Positions 19,782-27,961 of a DNA stretch of 46,192 nucleotides are shown here, in pieces. The stretch's first letter is position 1. Every line of letters begins with the position of its first letter. The notes beneath the pieces were generated by a model, which ran no database searches, had not been told where the DNA came from, and saw nothing but the letters and a program-made list of their open reading frames with translations. Origin of the DNA: Clostridia bacterium (GTDB lineage: Bacteria; Bacillota; Clostridia; Oscillospirales; CAG-272); the NCBI GenBank assembly GCA_017453365.1, contig JAFTKH010000009.1, positions 1 through 46,192 of the forward strand. The letters are read 5' to 3'. The position numbers and the translations under genes are program-made.

Positions 19782-20585
19782 TTAAGGCTGCTTACCGAAG
19801 TAAGCCTGTATACCTCCGTCAACGTACAGTATCTGTCCGTTTACGAAATCGCTCGCATCGGATGCGAGGAATACTGCAGGGCCTGCAAGATCCTCGGGAT
19901 CGCCCCAACGGCCTGCGGGAGTCTTCGTATCGGTTATAAAGCTGTCAAATGGATGCTTTGAACCGTCTGCCTGCGGCTCACGAAGCGGTGCGGTCTGGGG
20001 TGTTGCGATGTAACCCGGACCGATGCCGTTACACTGAATGTTGTACTGACCGTATTCAGATGCGATGTTTCTCGTCAGCATCTTAAGTCCGCCCTTTGCC
20101 GACGCATATGCGGAAACGGTCTCGCGGCCGAACTCACTCATCATTGAGCAGATGTTTATTATCTTACCCTTGCCCTTCTTTATCATAGAGGGAATAACTG
20201 CCTTCGACACGATAAAGGGAGCATTAAGGTCAACGTCGATGACCTGCCTGAACTCTGACGCCTTCATTTCTATCATAGGAATTCTCTTAATGATACCAGC
20301 ATTGTTAACGAGGATATCAACAACTCCTACCTCGCGCTCTATCTTCGCTATAAGCTCGTTCACTGCATCCTCGTCGGTAACGTCGCAGACGTAGCCCTTC
20401 GCATCAATGCCTGCCTCCTTATAGCTTGCAAGACCTCTGTCAACGAATTCCTGCTTCAAGTCATTGAACACTATCTTTGCACCTGCTTTAGCCATTCCCT
20501 TCGCGATAGCGAAGCCGATACCGTAGGATGCTCCTGTTACGAGAGCAACCTTGCCTTCAAGGCTGAAATTTTCAGTATTAGCCAT
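19782..20585 (-). CDS. kduD: KduD-like / gluconate 5-dehydrogenase SDR
   Basis: A 267-residue NAD(P)-dependent SDR. TGASYGIG (about residues 17-24), NNAGIIKRIPM, the catalytic Ser in INICSMMSEFG, and YASAKGG with Tyr and Lys are all in place; the C-terminus reads NGQILYVDGG. Close relatives are called gluconate 5-dehydrogenase or 2-dehydro-3-deoxy-D-gluconate 5-dehydrogenase (KduD). The gene upstream encodes KduI and the gene downstream GH88, so reduction of 3-deoxy-D-glycero-2,5-hexodiulosonate to KDG is the likely step (context inference). GGAG lies before the ATG. The gap to the kduI frame is 24 bases, so they share an mRNA. Confidence 0.85.
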   Translation of the reverse strand: MANTENFSLEGKVALVTGASYGIGFAIAKGMAKAGAKIVFNDLKQEFVDRGLASYKEAGIDAKGYVCDVTDEDAVNELIAKIEREVGVVDILVNNAGIIKRIPMIEMKASEFRQVIDVDLNAPFIVSKAVIPSMIKKGKGKIINICSMMSEFGRETVSAYASAKGGLKMLTRNIASEYGQYNIQCNGIGPGYIATPQTAPLREPQADGSKHPFDSFITDTKTPAGRWGDPEDLAGPAVFLASDASDFVNGQILYVDGGIQAYFGKQP

Positions 20586-20609: not shown

Positions 20610-22274
20610 TTATCTTAATTCCTTGGTTTCGATATGATCCATATCGGTGAACTCCTGATTTTCACCGCACATAGCCCAGATGAACGAGTAGTTTCTCGTT
20701 CCCACGCCCGAATGGATAGACCACGAGGGAGATATTACCGCCTCCTCGTTATGCATAATGATGTGTCTGGTTTCCTTCGGCTCACCCATCATATGGAACA
20801 CGGCGTCGTTTCTGTCCATATCAAGATAGAGATATACCTCCATACGCCTGTCGTGAGTATGACAGGGCATAGTGTTCCAGTTCGAGCCGACCTCGAGCTG
20901 TGTCAGGCCCATAGCGAGCTGACAGGATTGCATAACCTCGGGGTGTATGTACTGATTTATAACTCTCTTGTTACAGTCCTCCGCCGAGCCGCAGGGCACC
21001 TTCCGCGCCTTCGTAATATCTATCTTGACCGTTGGATAATCGGTATGAGCGGGGCACGAGGTCATATAGAATTTCGCGGGATTTTCGGGGTCCGTGCTCT
21101 TAAACACGAGCTCACGGTTACCACGGCCTACGTAGATACCGTCGCGCGGATTCATCTGATACTCTACGCCGTCGATAACTATTACGCCGGGGCCGCCGAT
21201 ATTAATACAGCCGAGCTCACGGCGCTCGAGGAAATACTCTGCCGCGAGCTCACGGCCTGCCTCGAGCTTAAGATTTGCGAACACGGGCATCATACCGATA
21301 ACTATAATTCTGTCGGTATGGCTGTACACCATTCTTATGTTATCCTTGGTAAAGAGGTTCGCTATATGAAACTCCTCTCTGAGTCTGTCTGTCGTATAAT
21401 ATTTCACGTCCTTGGCATTTGCCGCGTCTCTTACTTCCATTCCTTCCATCTCCTTTTTAATGTATTTACCGTAAACCTCTATTTGCGACAGCGCCGCAAA
21501 CGAGAGCGAACCGTCCTCGAGCCTCTGCTGCTTAAGACCGGTAAGCTTTACACGCTCGGTGGTCTTCGGCTCATCAAGCTTCACCGACTGCCCCTCCGCT
21601 GTGCCGCGAAGCTCGGTATGCACGCGTGTACCGTCCGAAAATTCGATATCCGCTTCCTTCCAATAGGTATCATGCGGAAAATCCGCTCTTAAAAAGAGCA
21701 CTATCTCCGACACCTCTACCTCCATACCGAAGCGTATCTCGAACTCCAGGTCCTCCCTCAATCCGCCTCCCCAGGAGTGGTAGGGATACACACCGTGATT
21801 GGAGTTATCGAGCACGCCGTCAATGGCGTTGCGCTCGAAGAAGCACGGATTTTCTCTCGTAACAAAATTAGCTACCGAATGAGGATAATATTTCGGCACG
21901 TTGTGCCTGTCGTGAGAGTTTAAGGATATGAGTCTCTCCCCATATATTTCATCAAATGACGGCTCACGGCAGATTATTCTGTGGTCATCGCCGCGAAATG
22001 CGTCAGGATGATAGCACGCGCGAAGCTCCATATCCATAGGTATTGCAAACTCAAACGTTCCGTCGGGAACGTACACTATAGACTCCGCCATAGTCGGGTC
22101 AAGCTTCAAAGAAACGAACTCGGAGTCAAGGAGTTCAATTCTGAACTTATCGCCGGGCTCGTACTCACCGGTTATATGCTCGTCGATATCTGCTCCGTAT
22201 GCTCGGAACTTGACCTCGCCGTTTTCGCGAAGCAGTTTTAGATTGATTATATCTATCCCTCCCCTTTTTTTCAT
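20610..22274 (-). CDS. kduI: Discoidin-like domain joined in frame to KduI (5-keto-4-deoxyuronate isomerase)
   Basis: One frame encodes two units. Residues about 10-275 resemble a normally separate Firmicutes protein with an F5/8-type (discoidin-like) carbohydrate-binding domain (ANFVTRENPCFFERNAIDG, YHSWGGG, FLRADFPHDTYWKEADIEF, ALSQIEVYGKY). From residue 279 the sequence is a complete KduI: it starts MEVRDAANAKDVKYYTTDRL and holds the zinc ligands in CHTHDRRMEVY plus a later His (WSIHSGVG). An internal ATG at 21440, with a full AAAGGAG nine bases upstream, would give a stand-alone 276-residue KduI, exactly the family length. The true 5' start is uncertain. ATGs at 22280/22274 lie at or before the predicted transcription start. 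A strong GGGGAGGG lies further in, followed by an in-frame ATC (22247) where homologues begin. Confidence 0.85.
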   Translation of the reverse strand: MKKRGGIDIINLKLLRENGEVKFRAYGADIDEHITGEYEPGDKFRIELLDSEFVSLKLDPTMAESIVYVPDGTFEFAIPMDMELRACYHPDAFRGDDHRIICREPSFDEIYGERLISLNSHDRHNVPKYYPHSVANFVTRENPCFFERNAIDGVLDNSNHGVYPYHSWGGGLREDLEFEIRFGMEVEVSEIVLFLRADFPHDTYWKEADIEFSDGTRVHTELRGTAEGQSVKLDEPKTTERVKLTGLKQQRLEDGSLSFAALSQIEVYGKYIKKEMEGMEVRDAANAKDVKYYTTDRLREEFHIANLFTKDNIRMVYSHTDRIIVIGMMPVFANLKLEAGRELAAEYFLERRELGCINIGGPGVIVIDGVEYQMNPRDGIYVGRGNRELVFKSTDPENPAKFYMTSCPAHTDYPTVKIDITKARKVPCGSAEDCNKRVINQYIHPEVMQSCQLAMGLTQLEVGSNWNTMPCHTHDRRMEVYLYLDMDRNDAVFHMMGEPKETRHIIMHNEEAVISPSWSIHSGVGTRNYSFIWAMCGENQEFTDMDHIETKELR

Positions 22275-22313
22275 TATCATTTCAATGATACCATATTTAA
22301 AATAATAAATCAA
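22275..22313 (-). promoter_or_regulatory. Promoter and palindromic operator of the uronate (kdu) operon
   Basis: TTGATT (22313-22308), a 17-base spacer and TATCAT (22290-22285) form a promoter. The perfect palindrome with arms TATCATT/AATGATA (22275-22290) covers the -10 box and the start region, the usual position for a repressor operator. The regulator is not identified. Confidence 0.65.
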
Positions 22314-23765: not shown

Positions 23766-24422
23766 TCAGAAGAGAAGCTCGGACAGCTCCTCCGTACGCT
23801 TAAGGTAGTAATCGCAGTTCCCTCGCATAAAGCGCTCTATGCTCTCTACGTTATGCGCCCAGCCTGCCGCCGCAAAATGTGCGCCGCCGCCTCTGGCCAT
23901 ATCGTATCCGGGCTTTAGGTCGTCGACGACGAGTATCTCCTCGCCTGCGAGCGAGTATCTTTCCTTCAAGTCGTTGATGCACCAGGGTGAAGGCTTTCTC
24001 CTATCCCTCGGGATGTCCCAGCCGTAGATAATATCGGGAGCCGGCAAAGAGTTTTCTCTGTAGTCCCTCTCGATATACCGCGTAAGAGAATGTGACACGA
24101 CAGCAACGTAGCCGCCCCTCGCTCTGAAATCGGTTATTATTTCCCTCATTCCGGGATAGGCCTCGGGAACTATTTTTTCAACAAATTCTGCCCAATAATG
24201 CTCCTCCGCCGCCATCTCCTCATCGGTCATACCTATTTCGTCACGAAAAAGAGATATCACTCCGGGGTGAAAATTCTTCTCATAAAAGCTCTCTAGGGTA
24301 TAGTTCCCCACAAGGTGAGGATACTTATCCTCAAGATATTTTACAAAACACGGGTAATGTATCGTCGCCGTGCTGTTCACGACAGTATCGTCGTGGTCAA
24401 GTACCAAGCATTTATATTTCAT
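23766..24422 (-). CDS. HAD-superfamily hydrolase
   Basis: A 218-residue phosphatase-like protein. Motif I is LVLDHDDTVVNS (DxD with the nucleophile Asp), motif II is VVSHS, motif III Lys is in RRKPSPW, and motif IV is LVVDDLKPGYDMA. The cap is of the helical C1 type (residues about 20-85), as in phosphoglycolate or beta-phosphoglucomutase-like enzymes; the substrate is unknown. Its start overlaps the end of the LRR gene by 11 bases and it is the last gene behind valS. A house-cleaning or sugar-phosphate phosphatase role is possible but not shown. Confidence 0.88.
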   Translation of the reverse strand: MKYKCLVLDHDDTVVNSTATIHYPCFVKYLEDKYPHLVGNYTLESFYEKNFHPGVISLFRDEIGMTDEEMAAEEHYWAEFVEKIVPEAYPGMREIITDFRARGGYVAVVSHSLTRYIERDYRENSLPAPDIIYGWDIPRDRRKPSPWCINDLKERYSLAGEEILVVDDLKPGYDMARGGGAHFAAAGWAHNVESIERFMRGNCDYYLKRTEELSELLF

Positions 24423-25326
24423 CTTTCAAATCCATAATATTTATTTTCGGTATTGCCAATGTAAGGTCGCTGCGTTTTATCTTTATTCCCTCGCCGCGTG
24501 TAAGAAGTTCAAAGGCCTCTTTACTGCCGCCGAAGGATATCTCGGAGAGTGAATCACATCCTGCGAATACGTCGGCGTCCTCAAGCTCGCGAAGCCCCTT
24601 TGGCATTGCGATACGACGAAGCGACGAACAATCGACAAAGGCGTCATAGCCGATATGCTCCGTGCCTACCGGGAGGATTACCGAGCCAAGTGATGAGCAG
24701 CCGCGAAACGCCCTTCTGCCTATTTTTTTAAGTCTACTCGGCATATCGACAATTTTCAGAGATCTACAGCCTTCAAAGGTGCTTTCATCGATAAGCCCCA
24801 TATTATCGGACAGCTTCACCGCCTCAAGAGAAAAGCAGGAGAAAAATGCGTTAAACTCGAGGAGTACACAGCTTGAGGGTATTATAACGTCGGTGAGATT
24901 GAAGCAAAAGGCAAAGGCTCCCGCTCCTATCATGTACACACTCTCTGACAGCTTGAGGCTCGAGAGCGAGGCGCAGCCCTCAAACGCTCCCTCTCCTATA
25001 TGCTTTACAGTATCCGGCATATTTACGGAAAGAAGCGACGGGCAAGAGGAAAACGCCTCGTCTCCAATCTCTAAAAGCCCCCATTCCATAGCGACGCGCT
25101 TTAAATTGTTACAACCCGCGAACGCCGAGGCGGATATCCTCTCAAGCGAGCGCGGCAGTATTACCTCTGTAAGGTTTTCAAATCCGCGAAAGGCATTCTC
25201 ACCTATCTCACGCATACCTTCGGGAATCACGACAGTTTTTACGCTCGCATCATCCGTGTACATTCCCGCATAAACTACGGTATTTTCCTCGTTTTGCAAA
25301 GGAAGGTTTACAAATTCACCCTTCAT
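24412..25326 (-). CDS. BspA-type leucine-rich-repeat protein without signal peptide
   Basis: A 304-residue protein made almost entirely of LRR_5 (BspA/TpLRR) repeats of about 23 residues, with units such as MREIGENAFRGFENLTEVILP and VKHIGEGAFEGCASLSSLKL. About ten units are visible, followed by a short basic and hydrophobic tail. BspA-like LRR proteins are usually secreted adhesins, but here there is no signal peptide or anchor, so a cytoplasmic scaffold is implied. The ATG at 25326 lies four bases after the valS stop; a TTG at 25338 is in frame but overlaps valS. It overlaps the HAD gene at its end. Function unknown. Confidence 0.82.
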   Translation of the reverse strand: MKGEFVNLPLQNEENTVVYAGMYTDDASVKTVVIPEGMREIGENAFRGFENLTEVILPRSLERISASAFAGCNNLKRVAMEWGLLEIGDEAFSSCPSLLSVNMPDTVKHIGEGAFEGCASLSSLKLSESVYMIGAGAFAFCFNLTDVIIPSSCVLLEFNAFFSCFSLEAVKLSDNMGLIDESTFEGCRSLKIVDMPSRLKKIGRRAFRGCSSLGSVILPVGTEHIGYDAFVDCSSLRRIAMPKGLRELEDADVFAGCDSLSEISFGGSKEAFELLTRGEGIKIKRSDLTLAIPKINIMDLKDEI

Positions 25327-25330
25327 GCGC

Positions 25331-27961
25331 TCACCCAAGCTTCGAAAGAGCTACAGTCAGCGAGTCTTTTATTTCAAGGTATTTTGCAAGCTTCGCGCGC
25401 TCCCCATCGATAACCGCAGCGGGGGCCTTCGACACGAAGCCCTCGTTCGCGAGCTTACGCTCTATACGCTCAATTTCAGCCTCGTTCTTCTTCATTTCGG
25501 CATTTAGTCTTACGCGCTCCTTTTCAAAATCAATAACGTCGGCGAGAGGAATATACATATTTCCGGCATCAGTAGCTATCATTACCGCATCGTCGGTATC
25601 ATAGCTGTCGGTGAATATAACCTCTGACGCACCTGCAAGCTTCTCAACTATCTTTGATGCTCGAAGGAAGGAGTCTCGGTATTTCGTTACTGCATAGAGC
25701 TTTGCACGCTTTGAGGGAGGTACGTTCATCTCCGCTCGCCTTGCTCTTATTGCGGTAATAACGGATATAATTCTGTCAACGTCGGCCTCTGCCTCGGGAT
25801 AACGGGACGTATCTTTTGCTTCTGGATATTTTTCAAGCATTATCGTTTCTCCGTTATGCGGCAGCGCCTGATAGATTTCCTCTGTAATAAAGGGAATATA
25901 GGGATGCAGAAGCTTGAGAACAGAGGTCAGAACGTATACAAGCACGCGCTTCGCGGTGAGTGCGGGAGCTCCGCCCTCGAAAATGCGGCTCTTTGTCATC
26001 TCTATATACCAATCACAGAACAGGTCCCAAGTGAAGGAATATATCTCGGAGAGCGCTATTCCGAGCTCATAGTTCGCGATATTATTGTTAACGCTTTCGG
26101 CAAGTCCCGACAGACGGGAGAGTATCCACTTATCCTCAAGGGCAAGCTCCTCCTCCAAGGGCATTTCGAGAAGCTCACCGTCACTCTCGGTAAGGTTCAT
26201 AAGGACGAAGCGAGATGCATTCCAGAGCTTATTTGCAAAGTTTCTCGCTGCTTCTATCTTCTCATCAGAGAAGCGCATATCGTTTCCGGGAGAGTTTCCT
26301 GTAGCGAGCGCGAAGCGAAGGGCGTCGGCGCCGTATTTGTCTATAACCTCCAGCGGGTCAATACCGTTGCCGAGCGATTTTGACATTTTTCTTCCCTGAC
26401 TGTCCCTTACAAGTCCGTGTATGAAGACAGTCGAGAAGGGCTTCTCTCCCATATGCTCGAGTCCCGAGAATATCATTCTCGATACCCAGAAGGTAATTAT
26501 GTCATAGCCCGTAACGAGCGCGCTCGTGGGGTAGTAACGGCGAAGGTCATCTGTTTCGTCGGGCCAACCGAGAGTCGAGAAGGGCCAAAGTGCCGATGAG
26601 AACCACGTGTCGAGAACGTCACTCTCCTGGCGCATAGTCTCGCCGCATTTCGGGCATACGGTGACGTCCACCTTCGACACCTCCATATGTCCGCAGGAAT
26701 CGCAATAGAAGGCCGGTATTCTGTGTCCCCACCAAAGCTGACGGGAAATACACCAGTCAAGGATGTTATTCATCCAATTAAAGTAATTCTTCGAAAATCT
26801 CTCGGGAACGAAGCTGACGGAGCCGTCCTCTACGGCACGGATAGCAGGCTCTGCGAGCGGCTTCATTTTAACGAACCACTGATCGCTCGTAAGAGGCTCG
26901 ACCGTTGTTCCACATCTGTAGCAGGTGCCGACGTTATGTGCGTGGGGCTCGGTCTTTACAAGATATCCCCCCTCTTCAAGGTCGGCAACAAGAGCCTTTC
27001 TGCAAGCATATCTGTCCATACCCTCGTATTTACCCGCATAGGAGTTCATCGTCGCGTCGTCGTTCATAACCTTTATCTGCTCAAGTCCGTGACGCTCTCC
27101 AACGAGGAAGTCGTTAGGGTCATGTGCAGGAGTTATCTTAACACAGCCCGTACCGAAGCCTATCTCAACGTAGTCGTCGGCTACGACGGGTATTTCGCGA
27201 CCGACTATCGGTAGTATCAGCGTCTTACCTATAAGATGCTTCGTGTTCTCATCCTCGGGGTTTACCGCGACGGCGGTATCACCGAACATGGTTTCGGGGC
27301 GTGTGGTAGCTATCTCTACATAGCCCTCCTCGCCTTTAATCGGGTATTTGATATGCCAGAAGAAGCCGGGCTGGTCCTTATACTCAACCTCGGCATCAGA
27401 GAGGGCGGTTAAGCATCTCGGACACCAGTTTATAATTCTGTGTCCTCTGTATATCAGTCCCTTATCGTAAAGGTTAACGAACACCTCACGGACTGCACGA
27501 GAGCAGCCCTCGTCCATAGTGAAGCGCTGGCGCGACCAGTCACAGGAAGCACCGAGCTTCTTCAGCTGTCCGGTTATTCTTGCCTCGTAGGAGTCCTTCC
27601 ACGCCCATACGCGCTCGAGAAATTTTTCACGTCCGAGATCATAACGCGAGAGCCCCTCGTCGACACGGAGTCTTTCCTCAACCTTTATCTGCGTTGCTAT
27701 ACCTGCGTGGTCGGTGCCGGGAACCCAAAGGGTGGAGTAGCCCTGCATACGCTTCGTGCGGACGAGGATATCCTGGAGTGTTTCATCAAGAGCGTGTCCC
27801 ATATGAAGCTGTCCCGTTACGTTTGGCGGCGGTATTACTATAGAGAAGGACGGCTTCGCTTTATCGCCGTCAGGCTTGAAATAGCCCCTTTTTTCCCATT
27901 CCGAATAGAGCCTGTCCTCAAATTCGGCGGGATTATAATTTTTCGCAAGTTCTTTCCTCAT
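25331..27961 (-). CDS. valS: Valyl-tRNA synthetase
   Basis: Class I synthetase of 876 residues. The HIGH-type motif is [15 protein letters not shown], followed by [16 protein letters not shown], typical of ValRS. The editing domain (CP1) spans about residues 175-360. KMSKS is present as [10 protein letters not shown] near residue 520. The anticodon-binding domain and a C-terminal coiled coil ([15 protein letters not shown]) complete the protein. I chose ATG 27961, with GGAAGGA upstream; the open frame before it runs through the T-box terminator. Expression is set by the T-box leader at 27996-28264, so it responds to uncharged tRNA-Val. The LRR and HAD genes ride on the same transcript. Confidence 0.97.

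Follow-up and report, generated by a model that had tools for sequence, protein, structure and literature searches.

A kduI gene with two candidate nested translation starts, one of them a non-AUG codon, in Clostridia

A fused kduI gene and its relatives

The window, a stretch of 46,192 nucleotides from a Clostridia bacterium (contig JAFTKH010000009.1), carries on its minus strand a reading frame that is open from 22313 to 20610 and that, read from the ATG at 22274, encodes 554 amino acids. Residues 279–554 of this reading match the KduI equivalog NF002091 over profile positions 1–277 of 277 (441.9 bits against a cut-off of 250), and phmmer matched the same half to seven solved KduI sequences, 266–296 amino acids long, including 1xru, 1x8m, 1ywk and 7e4s. 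By its sequence, the KduI half (20610..21440, 276 amino acids plus stop) is a full-length member of the KduI family (PF04962), which we take to be 5-dehydro-4-deoxy-D-glucuronate isomerase; the likeness extends to an adjoining kduD-like gene, and the difference from the solved members matched is that here about 270 residues precede the enzyme in frame. The next gene on the same strand (19782..20585, ATG start) encodes the kduD-like SDR, which passes NF005488, gluconate 5-dehydrogenase, and is followed by a gene for a GH88-type protein. Another genome (G466, locus L187) also has a kduD-like gene after the fusion, as judged by eye, and a PfkB-type kinase further on. The genomic setting is unsaturated-uronate breakdown. 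A frame of 352 amino acids antisense to the fusion (20634–21692, plus strand) is probably a shadow of codon bias, and a leucine-rich repeat protein that looks BspA-like from its sequence lies at 24412–25338 on the minus strand.

The N-terminal half (21441..22250, minus strand, about 270 amino acids) was assigned from family matches and pN/pS. No Pfam family passes its gathering score over this half of the window protein, which reaches 19.4 bits for PF00754 (cut-off 28.2) and 15.6 for PF24135 (cut-off 27); the F5/8 type C-like stretch, below cut-off, spans 21528..21833. Two of three stand-alone relatives scanned do pass PF24135 (DUF7402), at 36.9 and 28.4 bits, so ‘discoidin-like’ fits the second part of the half, and among 20 members of the N-half family DUF7402 was matched in 15 and F5/8 type C in 13 (E up to 0.1). 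The proposal of an earlier note on this DNA, that KduI is joined in frame to a discoidin-like half, thus stands. A profile search of solved structures gave nothing convincing for the N-half (best E 0.4), and nothing was drawn from an AlphaFold2 model of it built from 7 sequences (mean pLDDT 67, with 112–167 below 50). The half evolves faster than KduI, with pN/pS of 0.25–0.31 across 27 genes versus 0.11.

Stand-alone copies of the N-half are, by eye, of two sorts: proteins of about 270 amino acids without a signal peptide, and secreted copies, which are either lipoproteins (L023, L078, L081) or the C-terminal parts of proteins of 1235–1364 amino acids (L079, L082, L083). Two of these long, secreted-looking proteins (L079:3030-6734 and L082:1947-6017; 1235 and 1357 amino acids) pass Pfam HZS_alpha, the hydrazine synthase alpha middle domain, at 112 and 108 bits, and end in an N-half-type discoidin module, an odd setting for it; L083 (1364 amino acids) resembles them in appearance. 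One N-half gene (in G608) follows a heparinase II/III-like gene and lies near a second heparinase-like gene and a GH88 gene. A general link between N-half and kduI was considered and rejected, because it holds in the class sample and fails in the family sample. In the former, a kduI match was present in 17/20 genomes with a stand-alone N-half versus 53/371 others, the 53 including the fused genomes (Fisher 2.5e-11, on counts tallied by eye and with kinship ignored); in the latter, it was present in 0/24 genomes having only stand-alone copies (counted by eye), at least some of these copies being of the secreted kind. The order sample gave 8/14, with G141, which holds a fusion, set aside.

The fusion itself recurs widely. 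A search of the genus matched 43 of 69 genomes, 40 of them with both halves in one match (three cut by contig ends); the others have free KduI only (G021, G444) or a truncated form (G002). Five further fusions came from the order sample (f1 g40; f3 g61), nine from the family sample (f1 g40 and g409) and 15 from the class sample, where they fall in families f35, f36, f42, f43, f55 and f76, all outside the window's order. The total is 69 distinct fused open reading frames in several families and more than one order, and close relatives include UBA1740 and metagenome-assembled genomes of Clostridia from the gut of sheep, goat and roe deer. These 69 were selected as open over both halves and so cannot themselves reveal a stop between them; in the rows of the both-halves search that contain stops, these precede the start codon in all seven inspected (L010, L012, L013, L053, L142, L148, L151). 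The earlier note had asked whether a frameshift or stop separates the halves, and an assembly error is ruled out by the recurrence of the fusion in 69 distinct frames.

It had also asked whether any relative has the N-half next to kduI. Separate but neighbouring genes for the two occur in at least six genomes (G159, G215, G235, G467, G534, G705), with kduI first in five of the six and the N-half first in G235. In G466, the ATG of a free kduI (L179) is preceded by AGGAGGATTTAAGTAAG, which is nearly identical to the fusion junction in the same genome (L187). This near identity makes plausible the suggested origin by loss of a stop codon, in which the ribosome-binding site of kduI would have turned into the linker; judged by sequence, the linker is in effect a translated ribosome-binding site.

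A probable internal start for free KduI

The minus-strand sequence of the junction is AAAAAGGAG-ATGGAAGGA-ATG, with AAAGGAG at 21456–21450, nine bases of spacing and ATG at 21440–21438, exactly as had been reported. In a first set of 45 fused frames, AGGAG precedes the KduI ATG in 45/45, with GGAG 9–12 nt away; in other lineages the register shifts by one codon and the Shine–Dalgarno sequence is kept (AAG GAG GAT TTA AGT AAA ATG). Across all 69 fusions, the first codon of the KduI half is ATG in 63, TTG in 5 and ATT in 1.

Several controls bear on whether this site (21450..21456, with the start codon at 21438..21440) is kept as a start. The mean duplex energy of the internal Shine–Dalgarno in the first set is −9.79, versus −3.06 at 741 other in-frame ATGs. 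Synonymous recoding alone gives a mean of −8.01, and the group mean is better than that of 300/300 group shuffles (best −9.14). Single genes do no better than their synonymous recodings (fraction 0.07–0.81), because AAG and GAG, the lysine and glutamate codons ending in G, are common here. Among 42 conserved lysine or glutamate columns, the three lowest shares of G-ending codons lie at the junction (columns 280, 277 and 273, with 0.02, 0.15 and 0.22), and the columns that make up the Shine–Dalgarno end in G in 100% (column 274, the highest of the 42) and 95% of rows; columns 147 and 422, away from the junction, also reach 96%. Furthermore, the 50 nt around the internal start fold at a mean of −2.19 kcal/mol versus −10.44 at 1659 control places, 1.7% of which are as weakly folded. 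Codon bias, weak mRNA structure and a conserved Shine–Dalgarno with ATG are marks of a translation start, and in this comparison both the internal Shine–Dalgarno and its start codon appear to be under selection. A separate kduI transcript may arise from an internal promoter, at sites that are not conserved: in a scan of 45 genes, 25 had no site within 200 nt upstream, 17 had a promoter-like −10 ending no more than 30 nt from the internal ATG, and in 3 it lay 90–139 nt off.

Natural losses and duplications bear on the same site. Two genomes of different genera (G002 and G128) have lost nearly all of the N-half and retain an intact KduI with the same Shine–Dalgarno, spacing and ATG, in which 37 and 19 open codons, respectively, are left before the KduI ATG. 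In two more (G021, G444), KduI stands by itself after a AAAAGGAG of its own, with upstream promoter-like letters that resemble, by eye, those of the fused genes; these two are probably further losses of the N-half. The only internal start codon to have been lost, the ATT, is that of G504, which carries a second kduI. The internal Shine–Dalgarno is weakest in G504 and in G819; the latter also has a second kduI, divided between two contig ends, with a Shine–Dalgarno and an ATG of its own. The internal Shine–Dalgarno is kept in G466 and G801, which have a full and a partial second kduI, respectively. The association between a second kduI and a weak internal start has a Fisher value of 0.0026, counting a partial copy as a second copy, with G504 and G819 near each other in the tree and so perhaps one event; second copies can also be missed, many of the genomes being incomplete.

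The predicted start of the long form

In an alignment of 5′ ends, the position of the sister-clade ATG reads ATA, ATT or ATC (hereafter AUN) in the window's clade. In the window the aligned codon is ATA at 22250–22248, from which the long form (20610..22250, minus strand) would have 546 amino acids, a prediction that draws on this alignment and on in-frame stops just upstream in relatives. The long form probably does not begin at the ATG at 22274, which the earlier note took as the start of the fusion: this ATG lies ahead of the Shine–Dalgarno sequence, 11 bases past the end of a promoter-like −10. The non-AUG start had not been noticed there. An AUN codon behind an extended Shine–Dalgarno is found in 27/29 genes of the window's clade and in 34/67 of all fused genes with a 5′ end. 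The 43 such genes of the first set have ATG in 15, ATA in 13, ATT in 9, ATC in 5 and TTG in 1; 24 further genes, read by eye, have ATG in 14, AUN in 7, TTG in 2 and GTG in 1 (with L144 and L177 uncertain). Five of these seven AUN genes come from genus g307 (family f43), with TTG as the internal start codon, and in them the pick between two adjacent AUN codons is uncertain. A single fully supported group of 29 rows holds the AUN genes of the first set together with a nested ATG gene and a nested TTG gene, and over the whole tree the AUN label changes six times, four of these changes being forced by well-supported branches.

Six of the 27 AUN genes (L004, L007, L009, L012, L013, L025) lack any ATG, GTG or TTG from the upstream stop to the AUN codon, and in three of them (L004, L007, L025) the next such codon lies 47 codons inside; the other 21 have a canonical codon mostly only within the Shine–Dalgarno or far upstream with a weak one. 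Residues 10–55 have a pN/pS of 0.31, like the rest of the N-half, and since they are under purifying selection with no canonical codon nearby, translation would begin at about the AUN codon. An AUN codon at the start position, the extended Shine–Dalgarno and the lack of a canonical alternative together point to a conserved non-AUG start.

In the window the extended Shine–Dalgarno reads AGGGGAGGG (22257..22265, minus strand; duplex −12.4 kcal/mol). Such AAAGGAGGTGATT-like sequences average −12.56 kcal/mol in the 27 AUN genes and −11.67 in the 15 ATG genes, and that of the downstream kduD-like gene is weaker (mean −7.19 over 38 loci). This neighbour also served as a control for start codons, with a script that picked whichever of ATG, GTG and TTG stood closest ahead of a conserved motif: a plausible ATG, and no other canonical codon, was found in 38/45 loci, the gene not being located in the remaining 7. 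A second comparison is infC, known for its AUN start, which in the window's genus (L109–L138) has AUN in all 19 loci located of 30 (17 ATT, 1 ATA and 1 ATC, by eye), behind GGAGG or a like Shine–Dalgarno. Codon usage at the long-form start position is unlike that of isoleucine codons elsewhere in the same genes (p 1e-5, kinship ignored), and its apparent avoidance of ATG is not significant against drift, as 52/133 four-fold columns also have at most one G.

A consensus scan found a promoter-like TTGATT-17-TATCAT, with TG before the −10 (extended −10), at 22285..22313 on the minus strand of the window. With loose thresholds, such a site lies just upstream in 25/28 scannable genes of the clade, 21 of them with the TG, and in 32/42 across all lineages. 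The letters TTGATTTA...TATGNTATNAT stand near the Shine–Dalgarno, at 22285–22313 (minus strand) in the window and at the same place in relatives. With a transcript start 7 nt past the −10, the leader would be about 11–37 nt long in the window and its relatives. The −10 of the window ends at 22285, so that the ATG at 22274 lies close to where the transcript would begin, and leaderless initiation at this ATG is possible.

A proposed gene for two forms of KduI

We propose that one kduI gene has two nested starts, of which a weak AUN would yield the long form as a minority product and an embedded AUG would yield free KduI, a reading to which we give a probability of about 0.78. A promoter just upstream would drive one mRNA carrying both. 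Ribosomes would bind the extended Shine–Dalgarno and start the long form at the near-cognate AUA, AUU or AUC, which would initiate poorly, and a second Shine–Dalgarno hidden in linker codons, with its AUG, would give free KduI. Most of the output would be plain KduI, and a lesser fraction of the subunits would carry the discoidin-like half, the long form being a minority if AUN/AUG ratios measured in Staphylococcus aureus carry over. KduI is oligomeric, so long and short forms could mix, and they probably co-assemble. The suggestion of the earlier note that a fusion and a free isomerase come from a single frame is thus well supported by comparison, on which both initiation sites and their conservation rest; that both proteins are produced and in what ratio, that the weak start depends on IF3, that the forms mix in oligomers and that the N-domain binds a ligand is what we infer. 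The N-domain may hold the substrate, as that note also supposed.

This reading has to be weighed against others, of which some keep only one of the two starts. It is unlikely that the fusion alone is made, as a plain two-domain enzyme whose internal Shine–Dalgarno and ATG are the fossil ribosome-binding site of a once separate kduI. The G466 junction, matching the free-kduI site of the same genome, would be expected of such a fossil, and the lysine and glutamate of the linker, where pN/pS is low (0.13), could be kept for the protein; a fossil would not account for third positions that stay start-like around the linker across deep divergence, for mRNA that stays weakly structured there or for an internal first codon that is only ATG or TTG except in the genome with a second kduI, and AUN as the sole start would leave KduI scarce in half of the fused genes. 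That the purine run at the junction is instead an SD-like pause site, which aids folding of the first domain and starts nothing, is scarcely credible. Ribosomes do pause at SD-like sequences and the run sits at a domain boundary, but pausing does not call for a start codon at near-fixed spacing, for GAA as the second codon or for weakly structured mRNA, and a pause site would not be kept after loss of the N-domain.

The converse, that the AUN clade makes free KduI only and that its N-half has lost its start and is decaying, is very improbable. Several genes lack a canonical start codon, the N-half is less constrained than KduI (pN/pS 0.25–0.31 versus 0.11) and losses do exist (G002 and G128, probably also G021 and G444); against decay, the frame is open in 27 genes with a pN/pS of about 0.3 from residue 10 on, and the Shine–Dalgarno before the AUN codon is on average stronger than that of the next gene. 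We also regard it as decidedly unlikely that the long form starts at an unrecognised ordinary codon, be it a GTG in the Shine–Dalgarno, a leaderless ATG or a start inside the N-half. A GTG does stand three codons ahead of the AUN codon in 18/27 genes and an ATG two codons ahead in L055 and L065, and the window has its ATG at 22274. The GTG, however, belongs to the Shine–Dalgarno and reads GGG, TGA, TAA, GAC or GAA in the other nine genes, the six genes named above have no canonical codon between stop and AUN, and selection reaches residue 10.

Nested starts are known, and so are AUN starts. As far as the accessible parts of these papers go, few non-canonical bacterial starts have been characterized (PMC5472188), and a close parallel is Streptomyces sigR, whose conserved GTC start behind an extensive ribosome-binding site is repressed by IF3 and keeps SigR from exceeding RsrA, with rsrA having its own ribosome-binding site inside the sigR coding sequence (PMC5472188). 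The kduI fusion shares the weak non-canonical start behind an extensive site and the second site inside the coding sequence; it differs in that two forms of one protein would come from one frame, whereas sigR–rsrA gives two different proteins. In S. aureus, AUU and AUA starts with extended Shine–Dalgarno sequences reached some 10% of the AUG level when the medium was poor and, for one gene, up to 30% when it was rich (PMC13009471, accessible part). The genes concerned (infC, ccpN, cvfC1) have the same codons and the same extended anatomy, but no in-frame downstream start is described for them in that part of the source, whereas the weak start of the fusion has one. Raising IF3 in vitro made correct starts less frequent at an AUU codon that was decoded by a CAU anticodon (PMC10158994). 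In-frame pairs of N-terminal proteoforms found by Ribo-RET (PMC11005335) and the long and short forms of SpaO (PMC13059759) also come, in the portions accessible, from one frame through an internal start; in the kduI fusion, by contrast, the presumed short form amounts to a complete known enzyme, and it is the upstream start that would be weak, kept over many species. In one open library, and within the accessible parts of its papers, we found no combination of nested and AUN starts in a catabolic enzyme over many species and more than one lineage. The same library gave no paper on DUF7402 or on a KduI isomerase with a domain fusion, and for KduI with discoidin it returned one paper, on glycosaminoglycan use by haloarchaea.

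It is conceivable, though we hold this only tentatively, that initiation fidelity both sets and regulates how much decorated KduI is made relative to the plain form, with an AUN start sensitive to IF3 dosing the N-domain activity sub-stoichiometrically into oligomers. The N-domain would then perhaps be an enzyme or a hand-off module for an unstable unsaturated uronate just before KduI. Failure of the link between N-half and kduI in the family sample slightly lowers the odds of such dosing.

Gene finders assume ATG, GTG or TTG, and one would probably assign the window protein the wrong N-terminus. Natural variants, with AUN, TTG, GTG and ATG outer starts, N-domain losses and second kduI copies, make the proposed dual start directly testable. 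The fusion may tie an unnamed discoidin-type family to unsaturated-uronate breakdown, with the class sample (17/20) speaking for this and the family sample (0/24) against it. With a weak outer and a strong inner start in one frame, the proportions of two subunit forms could be fixed by simple means and, if the dosing by initiation fidelity is true, this would be a metabolic enzyme with a subunit composition tuned by start-codon choice in one gene, reached more than once in evolution.
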